NCBI RefSeq assembly: GCF_024490875.1
Contig: NZ_JACCLX010000016.1
Coordinates: 62,001-126,000, forward strand
Source: Methanocaldococcus sp.
GTDB lineage: Archaea > AGJL01 > Methanococci > Methanococcales > Methanocaldococcaceae
Length of the DNA: 64,000 bases
Direction of reading: 5' to 3'
The position numbers were made by a program, and so were the translations under genes. Positions 6,720 through 46,458 of this stretch are shown in pieces; within the stretch, counting starts at the first letter, position 1, and each line of letters starts with the position of its first letter. Below the pieces are notes generated by a model. The model was not told where the DNA came from. It saw only the letters and a list, made by a program, of their open reading frames with translations, and did no database searches.

Positions 6720-8801
6720 ATGGACAGAGAAGAATTTTTAAAGAATTTAAAAAGAGGAAAGTATAATAAATTAGCGAATCTTATATATAAAGATAAATAT
6801 TATTTAACATATTTAGATGAAATTTTTATTATTAATAACAAAGATGACATTAGAAGAGGGTTATTAATTTTAAAACGACTAAATAATGAAATAATTGAAA
6901 GATACTTATATTATATTCTTAGAGGATTAAACGATAAAAGAATGATAGCGAAAATTTCAGAGGAGATTTTAAAAAAATACAGTAATAAAGAAACCTTAGA
7001 GGAGGCATTATTAGAAATATCTAAGAAAAAACTAAGTGACAGAATAATATATCTATTTATTGAAAATATTGAACAGGTCATGTTTTTAAAATCTATTTTA
7101 AAATATACAAAAACTGACAGTGTTGAAGAAAGTTTTAAAGTTTTACTAAAAAATTACAATTCAGAGGAGATTTTAAAAATATTATGTAATAAACTTTATT
7201 CCCAAAATAAAAAGGAGAAGGAATTTGCTTTAAATATTTTATTAAATATTGTTGATTCATTGGATGAAAACCAAAGAAATATTTTAAGAAAATATTTAAA
7301 TATATTATTATTAGGAGATGACAGTAAAAAACTCTATAATAAATTTAAACAACTATTTGATAAGTTAAATATAGAAATTAATCATAACGAAATAGATATA
7401 ATGTCTCTTTTAAAGTCAGATGGAAAAAAGGCGTTAAATTTAATTTTGAGAGAGAATATAAAGATCCCCAGTAGTTTTTACAATAGAGAATTTTTAAGGG
7501 AGTTTTTATATGGAAAAGATGAGGATAGGCAATTTATTGGAGTTAAATTAATATCGTTAATGAACGATACAAAAAATAAAGTTGAATTACTCTTCAAATT
7601 TTTAAATTATGGTTATGGAAAGGCAAAAACAGCATCTATAAAAGAACTTAAAAAAATAGCCAAAAATGATGATGAAGATTTAAGGAATTTTATTGAAACT
7701 AAGGCATTAAAATATGCTAAAAAAATGGATTTAGGTTTAAAAATATCTTCTTTAAGGATTTTAAAAGAGTTTAGTAGGAGAAATTACCTGCCATTTTTAA
7801 TAAATGAGCATAGTAGGTTGAGAGATTTAATTCTTACATTGGATGAAGAAAAGTATATGGGCGGATTTAGGCATATGTTAATGATAGAAAATGAAATAAA
7901 AAAATGCAAAGTAGCAATGGATTTAATTGAAGAAATCGTGGCAGAGATTTGCTTAAAATATGAGATTCATTATAGTAGTTTAAGGTTGTCAGAAAAACTC
8001 GGCTATGAATTTTACAAAACTATTGCAAATATTGGCTCTAAAAATTTAAATTTAATAAATATCTATGAACTTTTAAGAGATGTTATGTATAATGGAGAAC
8101 TTATAGTTTATTTAACTGAAATTGTTTCCAACAATAGTAATGAAATAAATGATGAATTATCTGAGGAAATATTAAAAGTTGTTGAAAATGTAGAATTAGA
8201 AAATAAAGATGTTTTAAATGCTAATAAAATTATAATATATTCCTCATTAAATAGAATTGATAAAATTGGAGAGATAATAAATATGGCTGTTGGTTATAGT
8301 TCAAAGTTGGCATTTATAACTGCAATAAAAAAACTTATTGATAACAATATGCTAAATGATGAAAAAATAAACTTAATAATTCCAAAAATTGCTGAAATCC
8401 TATATGACTCTAAAAAATTAAGATTAATGGCTTTGGAATTTTTTGAAAAGTATCCTAATGAAATTGTTATCCCAATAATTTTAAATGAGATTGAAAAAAG
8501 TAAATGTAACAATAGAGAGTATAAATTGATGATGAACATTATAACAAATACTATATTTAAATATCCTCATACAATTAATAAGTTGAAGAATCTACTAAAT
8601 ACTGATAAAAGAAATATATGCTTAAATATTATGCTAAAAGTTAGTGAAAAGATGCCCGAACTTTTAAGGGATTATATTTATATATTAGCATCTCAATATA
8701 CATTATCAGATGATGAAGATAAAAAACTGATAGCAAAAATCTTAAAAAACATTACTACTGAGGATGAAAGGAAAATTTTAAAGCCATTAATAAAAATTTA
8801 A
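6720..8801 (+). CDS. Large helical-repeat (HEAT-like) protein of unknown function
   Basis: I do not recognise a specific family. The 693-residue protein is almost entirely alpha-helical, rich in Leu, Ile, Lys, Glu and Asn, with recurring helix pairs such as FIGVKLISLMND and YGKAKTASIKELKKIAKND. This suggests an alpha-solenoid of HEAT or ARM type used for protein binding. There is no signal peptide, membrane segment or cysteine cluster, so it should be cytoplasmic. The ATG has a GTGAT site 5 bases upstream. It ends 6 bases before the Toprim gene and is probably co-transcribed with it. It is divergent from rqcH, and a link to ribosome rescue or RNA processing is only a guess from position. Confidence 0.8.
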   Translation: MDREEFLKNLKRGKYNKLANLIYKDKYYLTYLDEIFIINNKDDIRRGLLILKRLNNEIIERYLYYILRGLNDKRMIAKISEEILKKYSNKETLEEALLEISKKKLSDRIIYLFIENIEQVMFLKSILKYTKTDSVEESFKVLLKNYNSEEILKILCNKLYSQNKKEKEFALNILLNIVDSLDENQRNILRKYLNILLLGDDSKKLYNKFKQLFDKLNIEINHNEIDIMSLLKSDGKKALNLILRENIKIPSSFYNREFLREFLYGKDEDRQFIGVKLISLMNDTKNKVELLFKFLNYGYGKAKTASIKELKKIAKNDDEDLRNFIETKALKYAKKMDLGLKISSLRILKEFSRRNYLPFLINEHSRLRDLILTLDEEKYMGGFRHMLMIENEIKKCKVAMDLIEEIVAEICLKYEIHYSSLRLSEKLGYEFYKTIANIGSKNLNLINIYELLRDVMYNGELIVYLTEIVSNNSNEINDELSEEILKVVENVELENKDVLNANKIIIYSSLNRIDKIGEIINMAVGYSSKLAFITAIKKLIDNNMLNDEKINLIIPKIAEILYDSKKLRLMALEFFEKYPNEIVIPIILNEIEKSKCNNREYKLMMNIITNTIFKYPHTINKLKNLLNTDKRNICLNIMLKVSEKMPELLRDYIYILASQYTLSDDEDKKLIAKILKNITTEDERKILKPLIKI

Positions 8802-25498: not shown

Positions 25499-28400
25499 TT
25501 ATTTTATGCTTAAAATTTCCTCATATAGAGTTCTTAAAACTTCCAAATAATCTACTTCGCCATTTTCAATTTTATCCATAATTTCCTCTAACTCTCTTGT
25601 TCTCTCCTCTGATATTAGATGAGGATAATGACTTATTAGATAATTATAAACTTCAATTCCTAATTTTGTAGGGATTAATTTATTTTTACCTTTGCTTTTA
25701 ATTACATATCCTCTATCTAACAACTTTTTAATAATTTGGGCATAGGTTGAAGGCCTTCCAATTCCTCTCTCTTTCATTAACTTAATAACTTCTCCCTCAT
25801 CATACAATGGAACTTTTGGAACTTTTTTAATACTCTTTTCTAACACTTTTAAGTAATTTTTCTCTATTTTTGGAAGTTTTTTTAACTTTAAATTATAGAT
25901 TCTACTCCATCCATCAAACTTTATATCTATGTATCCTTCAATTTTTTCATCTAAATCTTTTATATATATCTCTTCATATTCAACAATTGCCTCTTTCATC
26001 TGAGAGGCTATAAATCTTCTAAATATTAAATCATAAACTTTTATATGATTTTTTGTTAATTTTATATTACTCTCTTTTAAAAACTCAATAAGTTCTTCTG
26101 TGTCCATAGGCTTTGTAGGTCTTATACATTCATGTGCTCCTTCCATAAAATACTCTCTATTTTTTAAATAATCCTCTAAATTATTTAGTTTTAAATATTC
26201 CTTTGCAACTCTCATTCCATCTAACGAAACTCTCGTTGAAGAAGTTCTATGATATGTGCAGTTATGTGAAATAACCCCATTTGATATAAAGTTTTGGTTA
26301 TTTTTAATGGTTAGGTCATAAACATATCCATCATAGAAAATATCTTCTACATTTTTAACCCTAACAAATGATATCTCTCCATCAACAATTTTTTCTAAAA
26401 ACTCTTTATATTCTGAGTTATTTACATATTTTAAAACTGTCTTTAATTTATTTCTTGGAATATTGTTTGTCTTTTCTTTATACCAATTTTCAATGTATAT
26501 CTTACTATCTTTTAGTATATACTTTCTTCCTATTTTGAATGTTAATTTTTCAAATATTTCTTTTACTGGTAATAAATCACATCCAAATCCTTCCCCGTGT
26601 TCTTCCCTATATGTATTATAACCTCTCTCAAATGCTTCTTTTCTAATTCTTAGATATTTGGCAATTTTCTCCTTAAAGGTTTCTAATGATTTATTGCTTA
26701 TTATTAAGGAGTAAATTCTATTTTTATCTTTATGCAATCTGTTTAATATTCCAATTGAGTTTAAGTAAATACCTATCTTTTCTAAAACTTCTTTTCTTTT
26801 TGAAGTTAGAAGCATTCTTAAATTATGTTTTTTAACATTTTTGTTATACAGTAATGAGAAACATCCATCAGTATCAAAGTAACCAGCAATTAGTGCATTA
26901 ACATAGTTTTCTGGAAGAGAAAATATTATTCCATTTAATTTTCCTTCTCTTGTTCCTAATTTTCTTAAAATTTCTGCAATGATTGGATTTGAAATATTTA
27001 CTTGATTTCCAGAAATCCAATTATGTAAGAATGGAAATGTTTCATCCAATATAGTTTTAACATCTTTTAGTGGAGTTTGTGCAATCTTAATTTTGCTATT
27101 TTGAATGGACCCATCACCTAAAACTAATCCTACAAAATACCAAAACCTTTCATCTAATTTAAATAATGGAATTTTTTTAGTGCCTGCAACACTTTTGTAT
27201 ATATATTTTGCTTCCTTTTCAACCTCATCTAAATTAAAGTTCCATTTTATCAAATACTTTAATGGAACTCTTTTATTTCTAAGATATTTATATTTTGTAC
27301 TAGTTTTGATATTTTTCCTAATAAATTCTTCTATTTTTTCAAATATTCTTGAATTCTCGTCAAACTCTATTAAAACATCAGTAATGTCTAAATATTTCAA
27401 AAGATTCAATAATGATATTGGTTTTCTATCAACTTTGTAGTTAAAAGGCATTGCAATGTAATCATTTTCTTTAATATCTTTTGCAGAAATCCATCTCAAT
27501 TGATTATCTCTTAAAACCAATAAGTGGTGGTCAGGAGTTGCTTTTATCTCATAATTATTTGATAATATAATTTTTCTTAGATTTCCAGTGTATCTCAATT
27601 TCCAGAATTTTGTGACAATGTCTTTCTTTATTGATAAATCATCTAAATCTAACGATAAAATATTTCCTTCTTGAATATTAACAATATCTTCAATTGTTTC
27701 AATTCTACCATCTCCCAATACAACATAAGTGTCTGGTGTTAAACACAATCCCAATTCAAACAATTCTTGGGCAATAGCCATTACTTCATCTGCACTTAAA
27801 TTAAATCTCTTTGTAGATTCTTCCAATAAAGTATCTGTTGTAAATGGAGGTAATGGGTTAATTTCTTTCTCATATATTTTGACTTCAACTTCTACCTCAT
27901 CTTTATCAAATTCTTTTTCCCAAACCTTTCCTATGTAAATGTCATTTTCCAATTTTAATGATAAGTAAGGAACTTTTATTTTATGTTCATTGTATCTCTC
28001 TATAATCCAACCTAAGACAGGAGTTTGAACTCTACCAGCAGATAGATAGTTTTTATTAAATACCTCCCACAACTTTTGACTTAACCTAAATCCAATCCAC
28101 CTATCTTCTATTCTTCTAACAACTTGCCCCTTAACTTTATTTTCATCTAACTTTAACTCTTCTCCTTTTTTAAATGATTCTACTGCCTTTAAAATAGCCC
28201 TCTTTGTAATTTCGTTAAAGCCAACTCTATATATGTTTTTGTTAAATGGCATACTGTTAAGTGCTATGTCATAGCCTATCTTTTCTCCCTCAGTATCAAT
28301 ATCTGTTGCTATAAATATAGCATCTACTTCATCGGCTATTTCTCTAATAATCTCTATATTTTCCTTAGAATCCATAAAATTAACTTTTTCTCCACTTTTT

Positions 28401-30343
28401 GATAGTTGTTTTAACAACTCCTCTATATTCTTCTGGTCTGTAAATTGTTCCCCATTAACTTTTTTAATTGATGTATATATAGGAATATACACATTGTTTT
28501 CTATCTTTACTCCATAAAATCCTTCTTTTGTAACTAAATCAAATACATGTCCTCCACTAGCAGTTATAATTAAATTTATGTCTCCTATACAAACTTCATA
28601 AACATTTCTATTGTTTATCTTCCTAATTGAAGGTTTTCCAAAGAAACTTGCAATAGTTCTTGCCTTGTTTGGACTTTCTACAACCATTAAAACAGATTTT
28701 AGTAAATCAGGAATTTTTCCAGTAATTCTTCCTTTTTTAATTTTTTCCCTAAGTTCATCAATTTTTTTAATTAACTCCTCTATGTTAATTTCATCTATCT
28801 TTTTAAATTCACTTTCGTACATAAAAAGCATATACTTGTTAAGATACTCAAAAATATCTTTTTCATCAACCAACACTATACTTGCTCCTTTAGTTAAACC
28901 AAACTCTGTCATTCTTGATGTTCTTCCAGATGCTTGAATATATGTTTTTACATCTGGAATTAATAATAAATACTCATTATCCTCTACTCTTATAGAGAAA
29001 TTTTTTATCTTCAATTTTTCAGAAACTATTTCTTTAATCTCCTCTAAGGTTTTCCCTTCAATATCTATATCTTCTTTTAATTCACCTTTTTCTTTTAATT
29101 TCTCAATATATTCTTTTAACTTGATTTTAAACTTAGGAACTCCATAGAATATAGCATATCTAACCCTTTCGGGCATATCTAAACCTCTAACTAAAACTCC
29201 GTAGTAAGAGGCTACACCAATCAAAACATCTAATTTCCCTTCTCTAAAATCATCAAATCCTTTTTTATCTTTTGAGTGTATTAACTTTGCCTTTATACCA
29301 TTTTTAATTAAAAATTCTTCAATCTCTTTTGCTTTTTCAACTCCATAATCTATTGAGACAAATATAAGTCCTCCACTACCAAATATTTTTATATATTCTA
29401 ATATTTTATTTAAACTAAGTTCTTCATCATATATATCTTCAACATCTCTAAGTTTGTTCATTCCATAGCCAATTTCAAAATTCAACAATTCCCTATAAAG
29501 TTTTACTCTATCTCCATAACTCTTTCCAGTGGCTGAGGCAATTATTAAACATCCATATTTTATTTTTGACAATTTTTTCTTTAATATTTCTCTCTTTTTT
29601 AATGCATCTTCTATCTTTCCAATTTTTATTAGGTATATTATTTTATACGCTTCATTAATTATTTCATCGTCAAATCCCAACAATTTTAAAGTTCTATCAA
29701 CATTTTTAGATGCCTTTAATAATGCATCAACATCATCCACAAATATAAAGTCAAATTTTGTGTTTGGAGGATTTTTTGCCAAATAGTTTGAAGTTGTTAT
29801 CAGTATATCGAAATCATTGTTGTCTATTTTCTCTTTAACTTCCTTCTTTTCTTTTGTAGATAATTCTGAATGATAGGCAACAACATTTATTTTTAAATTA
29901 TTTTTATCTATCAAAGAGATAATTCTTTCATAGGTTTGTTTTATCAATAAAGTTGTAGGTAAGATTATATAACATTTTTTTCCTTTTTTTGCTAAGAATA
30001 AACTCATCAATACTCCAAAGAAACTCTTCCCCACACCAGTTGGGGCAACAATTGAAAAACTTTTATTTTTTAAAACTCTCTTAGCCCACATTCTTTGAAT
30101 ACTCAACAACTCATAGCCCAAACTTTTTACAAATTCCTCAAATTCTTTAAACTCATTTAATATTTTGCAATAATCTTTTAAATTTTTTAAAGTTTTTTCT
30201 TCTCTAAGTTTTTTACATAATTCTAAGTTATCTTTAACATATTCATCCTTTAAGCATTTTTCACATACTCCTACTTCAAATCTTTCGCTATAAATCTCTC
30301 CATTACAGTTAGGGCACATTTCTTTAAATATCATAGGTATCAT
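25499..30343 (-). CDS. rgy: Reverse gyrase with intein
   Basis: Reverse gyrase adds positive supercoils and marks hyperthermophiles. The precursor is about 1614 residues, of which 495 are intein, leaving a 1119-residue enzyme. In order: an N-terminal zinc finger (CPNCNGE, CEKC), a helicase-like module with Walker A SIVAPTGVGKSFF and FVDDVDALL, the Toprim segment VVESPNKARTIASFF with ATDIDTEGEKIGYD, and the topoisomerase IA domain with catalytic Tyr in TYHRTSS (residue 1364 of the precursor). The frame stays open to 30481, but the upstream 46 residues are hydrophobic leader-like translation of the promoter. The ATG at 30343 has a GGTG site and precedes the zinc finger closely. Divergent from taw3. 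Confidence 0.93.
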   Translation of the reverse strand: MIPMIFKEMCPNCNGEIYSERFEVGVCEKCLKDEYVKDNLELCKKLREEKTLKNLKDYCKILNEFKEFEEFVKSLGYELLSIQRMWAKRVLKNKSFSIVAPTGVGKSFFGVLMSLFLAKKGKKCYIILPTTLLIKQTYERIISLIDKNNLKINVVAYHSELSTKEKKEVKEKIDNNDFDILITTSNYLAKNPPNTKFDFIFVDDVDALLKASKNVDRTLKLLGFDDEIINEAYKIIYLIKIGKIEDALKKREILKKKLSKIKYGCLIIASATGKSYGDRVKLYRELLNFEIGYGMNKLRDVEDIYDEELSLNKILEYIKIFGSGGLIFVSIDYGVEKAKEIEEFLIKNGIKAKLIHSKDKKGFDDFREGKLDVLIGVASYYGVLVRGLDMPERVRYAIFYGVPKFKIKLKEYIEKLKEKGELKEDIDIEGKTLEEIKEIVSEKLKIKNFSIRVEDNEYLLLIPDVKTYIQASGRTSRMTEFGLTKGASIVLVDEKDIFEYLNKYMLFMYESEFKKIDEINIEELIKKIDELREKIKKGRITGKIPDLLKSVLMVVESPNKARTIASFFGKPSIRKINNRNVYEVCIGDINLIITASGGHVFDLVTKEGFYGVKIENNVYIPIYTSIKKVNGEQFTDQKNIEELLKQLSKSGEKVNFMDSKENIEIIREIADEVDAIFIATDIDTEGEKIGYDIALNSMPFNKNIYRVGFNEITKRAILKAVESFKKGEELKLDENKVKGQVVRRIEDRWIGFRLSQKLWEVFNKNYLSAGRVQTPVLGWIIERYNEHKIKVPYLSLKLENDIYIGKVWEKEFDKDEVEVEVKIYEKEINPLPPFTTDTLLEESTKRFNLSADEVMAIAQELFELGLCLTPDTYVVLGDGRIETIEDIVNIQEGNILSLDLDDLSIKKDIVTKFWKLRYTGNLRKIILSNNYEIKATPDHHLLVLRDNQLRWISAKDIKENDYIAMPFNYKVDRKPISLLNLLKYLDITDVLIEFDENSRIFEKIEEFIRKNIKTSTKYKYLRNKRVPLKYLIKWNFNLDEVEKEAKYIYKSVAGTKKIPLFKLDERFWYFVGLVLGDGSIQNSKIKIAQTPLKDVKTILDETFPFLHNWISGNQVNISNPIIAEILRKLGTREGKLNGIIFSLPENYVNALIAGYFDTDGCFSLLYNKNVKKHNLRMLLTSKRKEVLEKIGIYLNSIGILNRLHKDKNRIYSLIISNKSLETFKEKIAKYLRIRKEAFERGYNTYREEHGEGFGCDLLPVKEIFEKLTFKIGRKYILKDSKIYIENWYKEKTNNIPRNKLKTVLKYVNNSEYKEFLEKIVDGEISFVRVKNVEDIFYDGYVYDLTIKNNQNFISNGVISHNCTYHRTSSTRVSLDGMRVAKEYLKLNNLEDYLKNREYFMEGAHECIRPTKPMDTEELIEFLKESNIKLTKNHIKVYDLIFRRFIASQMKEAIVEYEEIYIKDLDEKIEGYIDIKFDGWSRIYNLKLKKLPKIEKNYLKVLEKSIKKVPKVPLYDEGEVIKLMKERGIGRPSTYAQIIKKLLDRGYVIKSKGKNKLIPTKLGIEVYNYLISHYPHLISEERTRELEEIMDKIENGEVDYLEVLRTLYEEILSIK
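26261..27745 (-). mobile_element. Intein with LAGLIDADG homing endonuclease in reverse gyrase
   Basis: A 495-residue in-frame insertion that splices itself out of the protein. It starts with Cys (CLTPDTYVVLGDG, block A) and has KATPDHHLLVL (block B, with the conserved His). The two LAGLIDADG helices are VGLVLGDGSI and IAGYFDTDGCF, both keeping the acidic residue needed for DNA cutting. It ends YDGYVYDLTIKN, then GVISHN, followed by Cys+1. The joined product reads ELGLCTYHRTSS, so the element sits two residues before the catalytic tyrosine. M. jannaschii reverse gyrase has an intein of nearly the same length, to my memory at the same site. Confidence 0.95.
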
Positions 30344-30362
30344 AATAAACACCAAAATTATT

Positions 30363-30380
30363 AATAAATAATTATTTATT
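30363..30380. repeat. 18-base perfect palindrome between rgy and taw3
   Basis: AATAAATAATTATTTATT reads the same on both strands. It lies midway between the divergent starts at 30343 and 30430. It may be a two-way promoter element or a protein binding site, but it is made only of A and T and could be chance in so A+T-rich a genome. Confidence 0.35.
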
Positions 30381-30429
30381 TTTGATTTCAACAAAATTGG
30401 TTTAAAAACTTTTTGCTTTGAGTGAGAGT

Positions 30430-31014
30430 ATGAGATTTGAAGATGACAAAAAAAGAACATTGATAAATTTAGAATTAGCAATTAGGGAGAACTTAGTAGA
30501 TAAAGATATAATTCCAATACTTGAAAAAATAAACAGTTTAGAAAATTATTACACTACGAGTTCTTGCATAGGTAGAGTAGGAATTATGGAAATACCAAAA
30601 GATAAGAATCCTAAAATATATTCAAAGTGGTTAGGTAAATGGCATCACTATGCCACATACGAAGAGATGTTTAACTCCCTAAAAAATATTTCCAATGAGA
30701 AAAATTATATTATCTTTGTTATGAACTCTCCAATATTACATATAGCATCAAAAGATATTGATTCAGCAAAAAAAATGCTTGAATTAGCAATACATTCTGG
30801 TTTAAAAAGTTCTTCAATAAAATCAATATCTAAGAAAAGGATAATTGTTGAAATTTTAACTACCTATAAAGTAGATGCTCCAATAGGAGAAGATGGAAAG
30901 ATATTTGTAGATAACAATTACTTAAAGTTTTTATTAGATTATAGCAATTCCAAACTCAAAAGAGCGAGAGAAATTTTTATGAGATGGGTAAATAATTTAG
31001 ATAAACTAAAATAA
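30430..31014 (+). CDS. taw3: tRNA wybutosine-synthesis methyltransferase Taw3
   Basis: Taw3 (TYW3 family) methylates the N4 position during wyosine-derivative formation at G37 of tRNA-Phe. The 194-residue protein has the family core: YYTTSSCIGRVGIMEIP near residue 40, KWLGKWHHYATYEEM with the conserved His residues, and later GLKSSSIKSISKKRIIVE. The frame opens with TTG at 30418, but GTGAG within it is the ribosome binding site for the ATG at 30430. Other wyosine genes (taw1, taw2) are not in the window. It is followed after 33 bases by hef. Confidence 0.9.
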   Translation: MRFEDDKKRTLINLELAIRENLVDKDIIPILEKINSLENYYTTSSCIGRVGIMEIPKDKNPKIYSKWLGKWHHYATYEEMFNSLKNISNEKNYIIFVMNSPILHIASKDIDSAKKMLELAIHSGLKSSSIKSISKKRIIVEILTTYKVDAPIGEDGKIFVDNNYLKFLLDYSNSKLKRAREIFMRWVNNLDKLK

Positions 31015-33387: not shown

Positions 33388-34236
33388 TTAATAAGGGACA
33401 GGCAAACCAAGTTCTTTTCTATGTTCAATCTCTTTCAGATTTTTCTCTTTTTTAGTTAGAGCTAATTTTTTAACTAATCCCAAGCCAGGTTTAACCTCTT
33501 CTATTGGTTTAACTTCTAAGTATCCATCTTCAACCATTTTGTTAAATATCTCTTCCCCTTTTGCAGTTCTTATAAAGACAGTACTCCATCCATCTGGGCT
33601 TCCAACGGAACCTGTTGAAATATCTGCTAACTCTGCAGTGTAGTCAGTGCATACATGACAAGCCACTTGCTCATAAGGATGGGTTTCTTTCAATTTAATT
33701 GCTTTTGTTTCTCCCCATTTTGTATAAACCCAAAACTTACCTTTACCAATATCTAATTTAACAACATCTTCCATCTTAACGCCACAGTGTTCTTCTACAA
33801 TTAACTTTAATCCATTGTATGGGAAGTTTTCCATACAGAAAATACCTATAATTAATGATATTTTATCAGGAATGTGTCTAAACCCTATTGGATACTTTAT
33901 TAACTTTCTTACAGCCCTAACTTGGCATGGAGTTCCTACAACTCCAATTTTTTCACAACCATATTCTCTAACAGCACTTTTCAATACAGATATATTAGGG
34001 CAGACGGTATATTTTGTTCCTGCCGCCTCTAAAACTTCCTCTGGCGTTGTAGCCACCTTAGGAATTGCTTTAAATTCTCCAGCATTATCTGCTACAATAA
34101 CTCCATCTAATATATTATTTTCTAAACCATAAATAAATGCAGTTGAAACTATACCACCATCTTGACATGTCTTTAAAACTTCTTTTAATGTACTTCTTGC
34201 TGAAACTACTTTCTTATAAGTTCCAAAAGGATCCAT
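33388..34236 (-). CDS. fruB: F420-reducing hydrogenase, beta subunit
   Basis: The subunit carries FAD, one iron-sulfur cluster and the coenzyme F420 site of the FrhABG complex. The 282 residues show [12 protein letters not shown] at the start, [26 protein letters not shown] and [17 protein letters not shown], where conserved cysteines bind the cluster, as in FrhB and related F420 oxidoreductases. Last gene of fruADGB, with a GAGGTGG site before the ATG. It sits 48 bases after fruG. Cytoplasmic. Confidence 0.94.
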
Positions 34237-34284: not shown

Positions 34285-34968
34285 TTACTCTATTTTTTCA
34301 ATTAACTCTGGAAATCTAATTCTTGGACACTGTACTGAACAAACTCCACATTTAATACACAAATACTGAGTAACATTTGGTCTTCCATCTATCATTTCTA
34401 TTGCTCTTGTTGGACATGCTGCGGCACAGGTTCCACAACCCATACAGAGGGATTTATTAACTACTTTAATTAATAAATCACATCCACATGCTTCACTTCC
34501 TTTTTCTGCTAATTCAGCAAATGGTTGTAAATATTCCATATCTCCATTTAATGCCGCATTTATTACTGAAACAATTGCCTCTGGTGATGGAGGACATCCT
34601 GGAATTGCTAAATCTACTTTAATAACTTCCGTTAATGGAGAAAATGAACTATGAACTGGTTTAGATAACTGATTTCCTTTACTATATCTTGTAACCCCTC
34701 CCGTAGCAGCACAAGCTCCTAAGGCAACAACAATCTTTGCTTTTTCTCTAACCTCTTTGGCTATCTCTAAACTATGATGGTCTTCTAAACATACAGAACC
34801 TTCAACTAATGCAATATCACATTCTGGAATCTCTCTAACATCTGCCAATGTTTGACAATAAACTAACTCAATTGAATTTAAAACATCTAATAACTTCTCA
34901 TAAGTGTCTGTCAAAGAAACTAAGCATCCACAACAACTACACAATTGGATATGAGCAACTTTAACCAC
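34285..34968 (-). CDS. fruG: F420-reducing hydrogenase, gamma (small) subunit
   Basis: The small subunit passes electrons from the NiFe site through iron-sulfur clusters. Its 227 residues contain the proximal-cluster cysteines ([39 protein letters not shown]) and two C-terminal ferredoxin motifs ([24 protein letters not shown]). The frame opens with a GTG at 34977, but GGGGTGA there is the ribosome binding site, and GTG at 34968, giving a protein starting VKVAHIQLC, is the likely start. It overlaps the end of fruD slightly. Forms the complex with fruA and fruB. Confidence 0.94.
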
Positions 34969-34969
34969 A

Positions 34970-35521
34970 TTAATCACCCCTCAATTCTCTAAGAATTATA
35001 TTTACAGCCTTATCAACAGCCTTTTCAACTTCCTCACTTAACCCAATATAAACATCTGGTTCAGAAATATATTTTGCCTGACATCCAATAACATTAACCT
35101 CTATATTATATTTTTCAGCGACCTCTTTTAATAAAGAAGATAAAGGCCAATTGTGAGAATCTAATCTATCATATTTTGGATTTGGCAACTCATCTTTTTC
35201 AATTATTTTTATTTCTCCCGGTTTTAATCCCCAGTCTATTACATCAACAACAATTATTTTTTTTGTCTTTGAATTTTCATCTATCAATGTTAAAACTTGC
35301 TGAGGAGCCCCTGTTCCGGCATCTACTAAAGCTATTTTTTCTTTTTCTTTTTCAGTTAAGATTTTATTCAATTTTTCAATGACATGAACGCTAAAACCGT
35401 CATCGGCAAATAATATATTCCCACAGGCTAACACCATAACTTCTTTTTTTAGATAGGATGGTGTTAAATCAAACAATTCATCATCATAATCTTTTATTTC
35501 AGATTTCATAGTTTCATTCAT
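34970..35521 (-). CDS. fruD: Hydrogenase maturation protease for FruA
   Basis: This endopeptidase cuts the C-terminal tail of the NiFe large subunit after nickel is inserted. The 183-residue protein has the HycI/HyaD-family core: [18 protein letters not shown] (the nickel-sensing acidic residues), [12 protein letters not shown] and [15 protein letters not shown]. It lies directly after the SECIS element of fruA and before fruG. Two in-frame ATGs (35521 and 35509) are possible and neither has a strong GGTGA site, so the start is uncertain by four residues. Its substrate tail on FruA would be the roughly 15 residues after the last CxxCxxH histidine. Confidence 0.92.
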
Positions 35522-35568: not shown

Positions 35569-35602
35569 GCCTCTCGGGTCCCTTTCGGGTTCCCCTCGAG
35601 GC
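35569..35602 (-). ncRNA. Archaeal SECIS element of fruA
   Basis: A G+C-rich 34-base hairpin in an A+T-rich region, starting at the first base after the fruA TAA stop. On the minus strand the outer helix is GCCUC/GAGGC. After a short G-A mismatch region GGG pairs with CCC. Then comes the diagnostic asymmetric loop GAA opposite A, an inner CCC/GGG helix and a GAAA tetraloop. This matches the archaeal SECIS consensus as I know it and sits in the 3' untranslated region, as in Methanococcales. It directs selenocysteine insertion at the UGA at 35678-35680. Confidence 0.93.
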
Positions 35603-36835
35603 TTATAACATTTTTCTAACTTCTATGGTTTCTTTTGACTCTTCATCCTTAACTATTATATGAGTAGCACATGACGCTCATATGTCATAGGCTCTCATTA
35701 TCACTTCAGCATATTGATGTGGATAACCCTCAATTGCCTTTTCAACTATTGGGAAGTTCCAAGTTGATGCCGCTATGATTCTATAGCTCTTTATTTTTCC
35801 ATCTTTTCCAACTTCTGCCATGTGTGTATTTGTTGCTCTTGGAGCTTCATGAACTCCAATTCCAAAACCATCTTTGTATTCAACCTCAGCTCTTGTCTTT
35901 CCATATATATTAACTTCATCTAAAATTTCTAAGGCTCTATAAACAGCTCCAAGGTTTTCTTGAGCTCTTGCTATGTTGATGTCTAAAGCACTACCTCCTG
36001 CTCTAAAGTTTCCAAATTTAACCAATCTTGCTCTTGGACCTCCTTCAGCAGGAACTCCTTCATATAAAGGAATTTGAACTGTTGTAGTGTGTATTGCCTC
36101 TTCATCATCATAGTATCTTTGAGGAGGAATTTCTACGACACTATCCCAGTTTATAGCATATCTATCTCCATATGTTGTGTGAGAGGCAATGTATGGGTAT
36201 TCATGAGACCCTAAATCAGGAATTCCCACATCTTCTAAGTATCTTTCAATTAATTCAGTGTATTTTTCATACAATTCATTAGCATCTTTTTCATACTGTC
36301 TTAATGCATAGTATAACCTTGACTTAGCTCTTTCAGTTATGTTTGTTCTCATTCCTCCAATTACAATGTTTGGAGGATGAATCCCTTCTCCACCTACAAT
36401 ATCAACTACTAACTGTCCAACTTTTCTCATTCTTTGAATTAATTTTATTAATTCGATTCTTAAATTAGTTTCATCTGGCTTTAAAAAGTCATCAATTGTT
36501 AATAAGTGGTGTAACGGATGAGAATGTAATCTATTTCCAAGTCCTACTAATTCCCTTAACAATAAACCATCATCAGGAACTTCACAGTCTATTGCATTTT
36601 CTATTGCTTCACAGGAAGCAATTCCATGAGTAGTTTGACAAATCCCACAGATTCTCATAACTGCGATTGGAGCAAACTCTGCTGGTTTGCCTTTTAACAT
36701 TGTTTCAAATCCTCTAACAGGAGTCGTATTTAAATAATATGCTTTATTTATAATTCCTTCATCATCAACTTCTAAAATCAGTTTCGCATGTCCTTCGTGT
36801 CTTGTTGTAGGCGTTATTTCTATTCTGTTAGTCAC
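35603..36835 (-). CDS. fruA: F420-reducing hydrogenase, selenocysteine-containing alpha (large) subunit
   Basis: The NiFe-site subunit of the F420-reducing hydrogenase. N-terminal ligands are in RICGICQTTHG. The C-terminal ligand motif, normally DPCxxCxxH, is interrupted by an in-frame TGA at 35678-35680. Reading it as selenocysteine (residue 386) gives YDI-Sec-ASCATH, which restores the motif. Translation then continues for about 15 residues to TAA at 35603-35605, ending VRKML, the tail removed by FruD. A SECIS hairpin follows the stop. I chose GTG at 36835 because a GGAGGTGA site lies 5 bases upstream. The ATG at 36850 would overlap that site. The protein is about 410 residues. Stopping at the TGA would be a misannotation. 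Confidence 0.95.
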
Positions 36836-36900
36836 AAAATTCACCTCCATAACAATAAGGCGATAAAAATAGAGAATAAAGTTTTGCTCATAAAATTTTT

Positions 36901-46347: not shown

Positions 46348-46458
46348 TGGTGGGGGTGCTGGGATTTGAACCCAGGTCCAGGGATTTCTCCTGCCATGGT
46401 CCAGTGCCCTATAGGCATCTGGAGTCCCCGATGATAGACCTGGCTACACCACACCCCC
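46348..46458 (-). tRNA. tRNA-Trp(CCA) with intron and encoded CCA end
   Basis: On the minus strand the acceptor stem is GGGGGUG paired with CACCCCC, followed by discriminator A and an encoded CCA. The T arm is CUGGG-UUCAAAU-CCCAG. The anticodon stem GGGGA pairs with UCCCU around loop CU-CCA-GA, giving anticodon CCA (Trp). A 33-base intron (46386-46418) interrupts the loop between positions 37 and 38. Exons are 40 and 38 bases. A+T-rich TATA-like sequence lies at 46471-46492. It stands alone among protein genes. Confidence 0.95.
46386..46418 (-). other. tRNA-Trp intron with bulge-helix-bulge
   Basis: The 33-base intron forms a textbook archaeal splice structure with the exons. CUCC pairs with GGAG as a 4-base central helix. 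The 3-base bulges AGA and AAA lie on opposite strands, with UGCC/GGCA inside and GGGA/UCCC outside. Cleavage between bases 2 and 3 of each bulge gives exactly the exon ends used here. It is too short to hold a C/D box guide. Confidence 0.92.

Follow-up and report, generated by a model that had tools for sequence, protein, structure and literature searches.

The closest described counterpart of the locus analysed here is fruA of M. jannaschii, whose SECIS was found to be needed for selenium incorporation in labelling experiments that used M. maripaludis as a heterologous host (Rother et al. 2001, as described in PMC9622424). The window, the whole 64,000-nucleotide stretch of DNA that was analysed, shares with it the gene, the genus, the position of selenocysteine (Sec) and a GAA/A-type SECIS in the 3′-UTR; the differences are confined to sequence details, a few percent of residues and single SECIS bases, and FruA identity between neighbours in the main Methanocaldococcus group is 90–97%. 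The fruA SECIS of M. maripaludis has been dissected by reporter (PMC9622424, PMC11881835). In the minifruA reporter of strain JJ it has, like that of the window, a kink-turn-like GAA/A motif flanked by two GC clamps in the 3′-UTR, whereas the UGA–SECIS spacing is 88 nt against 75 nt in the window, the apical stem has two pairs against three, and the window hairpin starts immediately behind the stop codon. A distinct arrangement is described for fdhA1, whose SECIS lies in the 5′-UTR between stretches that can pair with the coding region, leaving an effective distance of 43 nt; these complementary stretches are longer in thermophiles. In a reporter in mesophilic M. maripaludis, raw activity was unchanged and activity per mRNA was about twofold higher (Peiter et al. 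2025, PMC11881835). A review suggested that the unusual fdhA arrangement reflects a constraint on distance (PMC2933860). The fruA gene of the window is without any fdhA1-like helix, and its in-frame UGA with the SECIS behind the stop, pointed out in an earlier note on this DNA, is confirmed, already known and ordinary.

The fruA/frhA coding region occupies positions 35603–36835 on the minus strand and, translated with TGA as U from a GTG start to a TAA stop, comprises 410 residues with Sec as residue 386. Its identity is established by the curated family model TIGR03295 (638.6 bits; cut-off 392.5). We prefer the GTG start at 36835 over the mechanically called ATG at 36850 because the GTG is preceded by a GGAGGTG ribosome site and the TIGR03295 alignment begins at its residue, in agreement with the start that the earlier note had chosen. 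Also as read there, an in-frame TGA (35680–35678) is followed by 24 open codons and a TAA (35605–35603), and the relatives bear this out. The UGA (35678–35680, minus strand) would encode the residue that opens the C-terminal (U/C)xxCxxH metal-ligand motif. Its counterpart is the first Cys of DPCISCATH in the solved Frh of M. thermolithotrophicus (PDB 9R51), the nearest solved relative, which has RAYDPCISCATH at the place of RAYDIUASCATH in the window. The earlier claim that the TGA splits a conserved motif stands, with a small correction to the motif as then written, which here is D-I-U-A-S-C-A-T-H and not DP(U/C). The 24 codons past the UGA (35606–35677, minus strand) encode ASCATH and a C-terminal tail, so that DIUASCATH is followed by 18 residues as expected of FrhA/FruA; removal of the tail by FrhD is predicted, and the solved chain 4CI0, whose 386 residues stop at the position that aligns with His392, matches that expectation. 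Downstream on the same strand lie frhD, encoding the hydrogenase maturation protease (34970–35521; TIGR00130, 219.2 bits, cut-off 134.95), frhG, the small subunit of F420-reducing hydrogenase (34285–34977; TIGR03294, 405.8 bits), and frhB, its beta subunit (33388–34236; TIGR03289, 498.4 bits), giving the gene order frhADGB. A search of the genome for a second FrhA-like gene or a Cys-type FrhA copy found none; apart from the VhuA gene, which was expected, its hydrogenase-like matches were weak. Correct annotation of fruA matters: a standard ORF call does end at the TGA, as the earlier note had warned, and loses both C-terminal metal-ligand residues of the large subunit.

Directly after the TAA, at 35569–35602 on the minus strand, begins a 34-nt archaeal SECIS with the sequence GCCUC-GA-GGG-GAA-CCC-GAAA-GGG-A-CCC-GA-GAGGC, in which the GAA (35592–35590) faces an opposing A at 35579, the apical stem is CCC/GGG with a GAAA tetraloop, and the lower stem holds a tandem GA/GA loop. 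The published eaSECIS model has a lower stem of 3–10 bp, a GAA/A bulge, an upper stem of 3–6 bp with three S-S pairs and an apical loop of 3–19 nt (PMC11227280); the window hairpin shows the corresponding GGG/CCC, GAA/A, CCC/GGG and GAAA elements, with its 3-bp lower stem extended by the GA/GA loop and 5 further pairs. Its minimum free energy is −22.5 kcal/mol, whereas shuffled versions average −13.9 (z = −2.99) and 1 in 200 of them folds as stably. In an alignment of 8 hairpins, 98.9% of the pair cells hold a pair and 4 of 11 pairs show double changes, a signal that is lost when the partners are shifted by one base. Fold, model fit and covariation together bear out the proposal of a SECIS with a GAA/A loop immediately behind the true stop. 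Since the Rfam scan of the window gave no family above threshold at the hairpin, we built a covariance model from relatives (8 sequences including the window; MAFFT alignment checked by eye). Against the whole genome this model recovered the SECISs of fruA, its best match, fwuB and vhuD (L100–L102) along with one weak match; the divergent SECISs of sps, hdrA and vhuU were missed by it and were found with a simple pattern scanner. Allowing two mismatches in the pattern brought control counts level with real counts, and this setting was discarded as non-discriminating. A 12-nt direct repeat flanking the fruA SECIS was taken as chance. Two relatives (L053, L056) have, between the fruA SECIS and frhD, a roughly 100-nt element whose terminal inverted repeats are ACAGGACTTTCGCAG / CTGCGAAAGTCCTGT and which is oppositely oriented in the two species; a similar one occurs in an sps 3′-UTR (L109), and it looks like a small mobile element.

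An open frame behind the TGA, taken alone, is weak evidence, as 213 of the 2004 TGA triplets in the window (10.6%) are followed by 24 open codons; conservation decides. TGA occupies the same fruA codon in 18 of 18 distinct relatives (14 of 14 family genomes and 4 more contigs), and all 18 have a GAA/A hairpin in the 3′-UTR, mostly within one base of the stop. In the more distant relatives (L048, G003, G012) the GAA/A is kept and the stems are quite different. That the TGA is a genuine stop or a sequencing error, in a gene that is truncated or has Cys at this place, would agree with where a standard ORF call ends, and is nevertheless extremely improbable: the TGA recurs in all independent genomes and contigs, and the downstream peptide, which contains the metal-ligand motif, is kept with a bias towards third-position change (mean pairwise differences of 1.71, 0.51 and 5.64 at codon positions 1, 2 and 3 among 11 close relatives). 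At the level of sequence, this conservation already refutes such a reading. The hairpin could also serve only to terminate transcription intrinsically, as a GC-rich stem with TTTTT behind it, and this T run does follow GAGGC in the window and in one relative (G010). We rejected this as very unlikely, since in most relatives the stem and the GAA/A are conserved and the T run is not, and since frhD, frhG and frhB lie close behind in the same orientation.

The source genome (99.78% complete) encodes the complete archaeal Sec-decoding trait. The earlier note had pointed to SelB, Sec-tRNA and PSTK as the genes to look for, and all are present: a tRNA-Sec with anticodon UCA, PSTK (346.7 bits; cut-off 290.5) and aSelB (501 bits; cut-off 242), together with SepSecS (598 bits) and SPS, whose own gene has an in-frame UGA. 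A reading of the fruA UGA as Trp or Cys by general suppression, instead of SECIS-directed Sec insertion, could draw on the low-level SECIS-independent suppression reported in M. maripaludis (PMC9622424); given a tRNA-Sec with its full pathway in the genome and a SECIS at every fruA examined, we assign it a minimal probability. Our preferred reading, which we regard as practically certain, is that fruA encodes the [NiFeSe] large subunit of F420-reducing hydrogenase, that its UGA is decoded as Sec through the archaeal pathway under the SECIS, and that FrhD trims the tail. PSTK would phosphorylate serine on tRNA-Sec, SepSecS would convert the phosphoserine to Sec with selenophosphate supplied by SPS, and archaeal SelB would deliver the Sec-tRNA to the fruA UGA, directed by the SECIS right after the TAA. 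Sec386 would then take the place of the Cys ligand at the active-site nickel, and FrhD would remove the 18 residues beyond His392. Conservation of the UGA, the SECIS and the machinery genes support Sec in FruA; from these we infer its insertion in this organism, and nickel ligation and tail cleavage are expected from knowledge of the family.

The position of the fruA SECIS acquires a possible explanation from other selenoprotein genes of the source genome. In sps, hdrA and fwuB, where the SECIS lies about 1–1.5 kb from the UGA, a stretch of coding sequence behind the UGA has a 17–29-nt reverse complement located 10–21 nt before the SECIS. In sps, a 20-nt stretch that starts about 10 nt past the UGA matches almost exactly the reverse complement of the 20 nt that open the 3′-UTR, 963 nt away; the arms form a helix of 17 bp (L092:1541–1560 with L092:2524–2543). 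Two nested helices occur in hdrA, one of 29 bp joining UGA+38 to stop+37 (L117:948–976 with 2333–2361) and one of 19 bp joining UGA+152 to stop+6 (L117:1062–1080 with 2302–2320). Likewise, fwuB has nested helices of 21 bp (UGA+25 with stop+81; L117:7135–7155 with 8136–8156) and 13 bp (UGA+109 with stop+55; L117:7219–7231 with 8110–8122). When 50 ORFs of the window were searched over their whole length as a null, the best score was 34; on the same scale the main hdrA and fwuB helices score 49–68 and the 17-bp sps helix, reckoned by hand, about 44. The same reverse-complement search found no such helix in fruA, vhuU or vhuD of the source genome, where the UGA lies 75, 72 and 366 nt from the stop, respectively.

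The helices recur in relatives. All 15 genomes of the genera g1 and g5 have the sps helix, with 17–22 uninterrupted pairs (L104–L116, L120 and L121 among the loci), and is absent in genera g2, g3 and g4. Over 13 distinct sequences, 97.9% of its cells pair and 7 of 18 pairs show double changes (23 cells), with a covariation score of 0.301 against at most 0.071 for the slid control. The fwuB helix measures 14–26 bp in 9 of 12 g1 genomes and in all g3, g4 and g5 genomes read; in g2 it is down to 11 bp (three genomes). Double changes occur in 3 of 16 pairs, as where the arms GATGTAGG/CCTACATC give way to GACGTAGG, GAGGTAGG, GAGATAGG or GAAATAGG, each with a matching 3′ arm. For hdrA, six g1 genomes have a helix of 26–29 bp, with an interruption in G004, while g5 has 20–25 bp and G023 has 15 bp; formal covariation counts cover sps and fwuB. 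As arms were chosen as the best helix, the percentages paired are biased upwards, and double changes with the slid control are the better measures. On sequence comparison, covariation of the sps helix (15 species) and of the fwuB helix (20 species, across four genera) is well supported.

The 3′ arm of these helices lies at a variable 0–138 nt from the stop, yet usually 10–21 nt before the SECIS; in some sps genes the gap is 27–40 nt, and in two it reaches 79–95 nt through extra sequence. Folding would reduce a UGA–SECIS contour length of 984–1566 nt to an effective single-stranded distance of 20–54 nt in most helix genes, and up to 102 nt, compared with a real distance of about 75 nt in fruA and vhuU of the source genome. 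We lean towards the view that hyperthermophilic Methanococcales keep each SECIS effectively about 20–100 nt from its UGA. Where the UGA lies near the 3′ end of the gene, as in fruA and vhuU, the SECIS would simply be placed after the stop, which would explain the fruA element; where it lies about 1–1.5 kb away, as in sps, hdrA and fwuB, the helix between the post-UGA coding stretch and the 3′-UTR arm would fold the distant SECIS back to the UGA. In its strict form the rule does not hold for vhuD, where some 390 nt of contour separate UGA and SECIS and a helix is lacking. A rival function for the helix is in ribosome pausing or mRNA protection instead of proximity; pausing at the UGA is a rival for sps, whose helix starts 10–13 nt past that codon. 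Proximity for Sec insertion is the purpose that we infer and prefer. The fdhA1 case is similar in that complementary stretches would place the SECIS near the UGA and fits the same distance rule, but it concerns one gene with a 5′-UTR SECIS, whereas here 3′-UTR SECISs of three other genes are involved and the helices covary, as counted for sps and fwuB. Our literature search on long-range helices in sps, hdrA and fwuB found only the fdhA1 5′-UTR case; older subscription papers lay outside its scope, and an earlier report is possible. The covarying helices in sps, hdrA and fwuB make the action of a 3′-UTR SECIS about 1 kb from a single UGA testable with existing reporters. We know of no archaeal SECIS-binding factor.

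Several relatives depart from these arrangements. The fwuB genes of G012, G003 and G009 (L163, L166, L178) have an in-frame UGA yet lack both a long-range helix and a recognisable SECIS, behind the stop or elsewhere in the flanking sequence read. In hdrA of G013, G009, G003 and G012 (L142, L144, L146, L147) the UGA codon is intact, the helix is missing and the 3′-UTR hairpin keeps AUGA...UGA (or GA) and has lost the GAA/A. The AUGA/GA quartet at the base of the hdrA SECIS looked new, yet it and the AUGA...GA kink-turn core have been described before (PMC11227280). A canonical SECIS without a helix is found in hdrA of G007. In the exception genomes, hdrA and fwuB might draw on the SECISs of vhuD and vhuU, which belong to the same gene cluster. 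The vhuD SECIS of the source genome (L102:1480–1565, 3′-UTR) is enclosed by an outer stem GCCGGAG/CTCCGGC and has a second hairpin next to it; in relatives its flanks contain conserved GGGATGA and ACCGCCCC. Elsewhere in the window, a reverse-gyrase-like ORF of 1660 aa (25499–30481, minus strand) appears from its translation to contain an intein next to the motif TYHRTSST, and a tRNA of 108 nt (46351–46458, minus strand), found by Rfam and not by ARAGORN, is probably an intron-containing tRNA-Trp(CCA).
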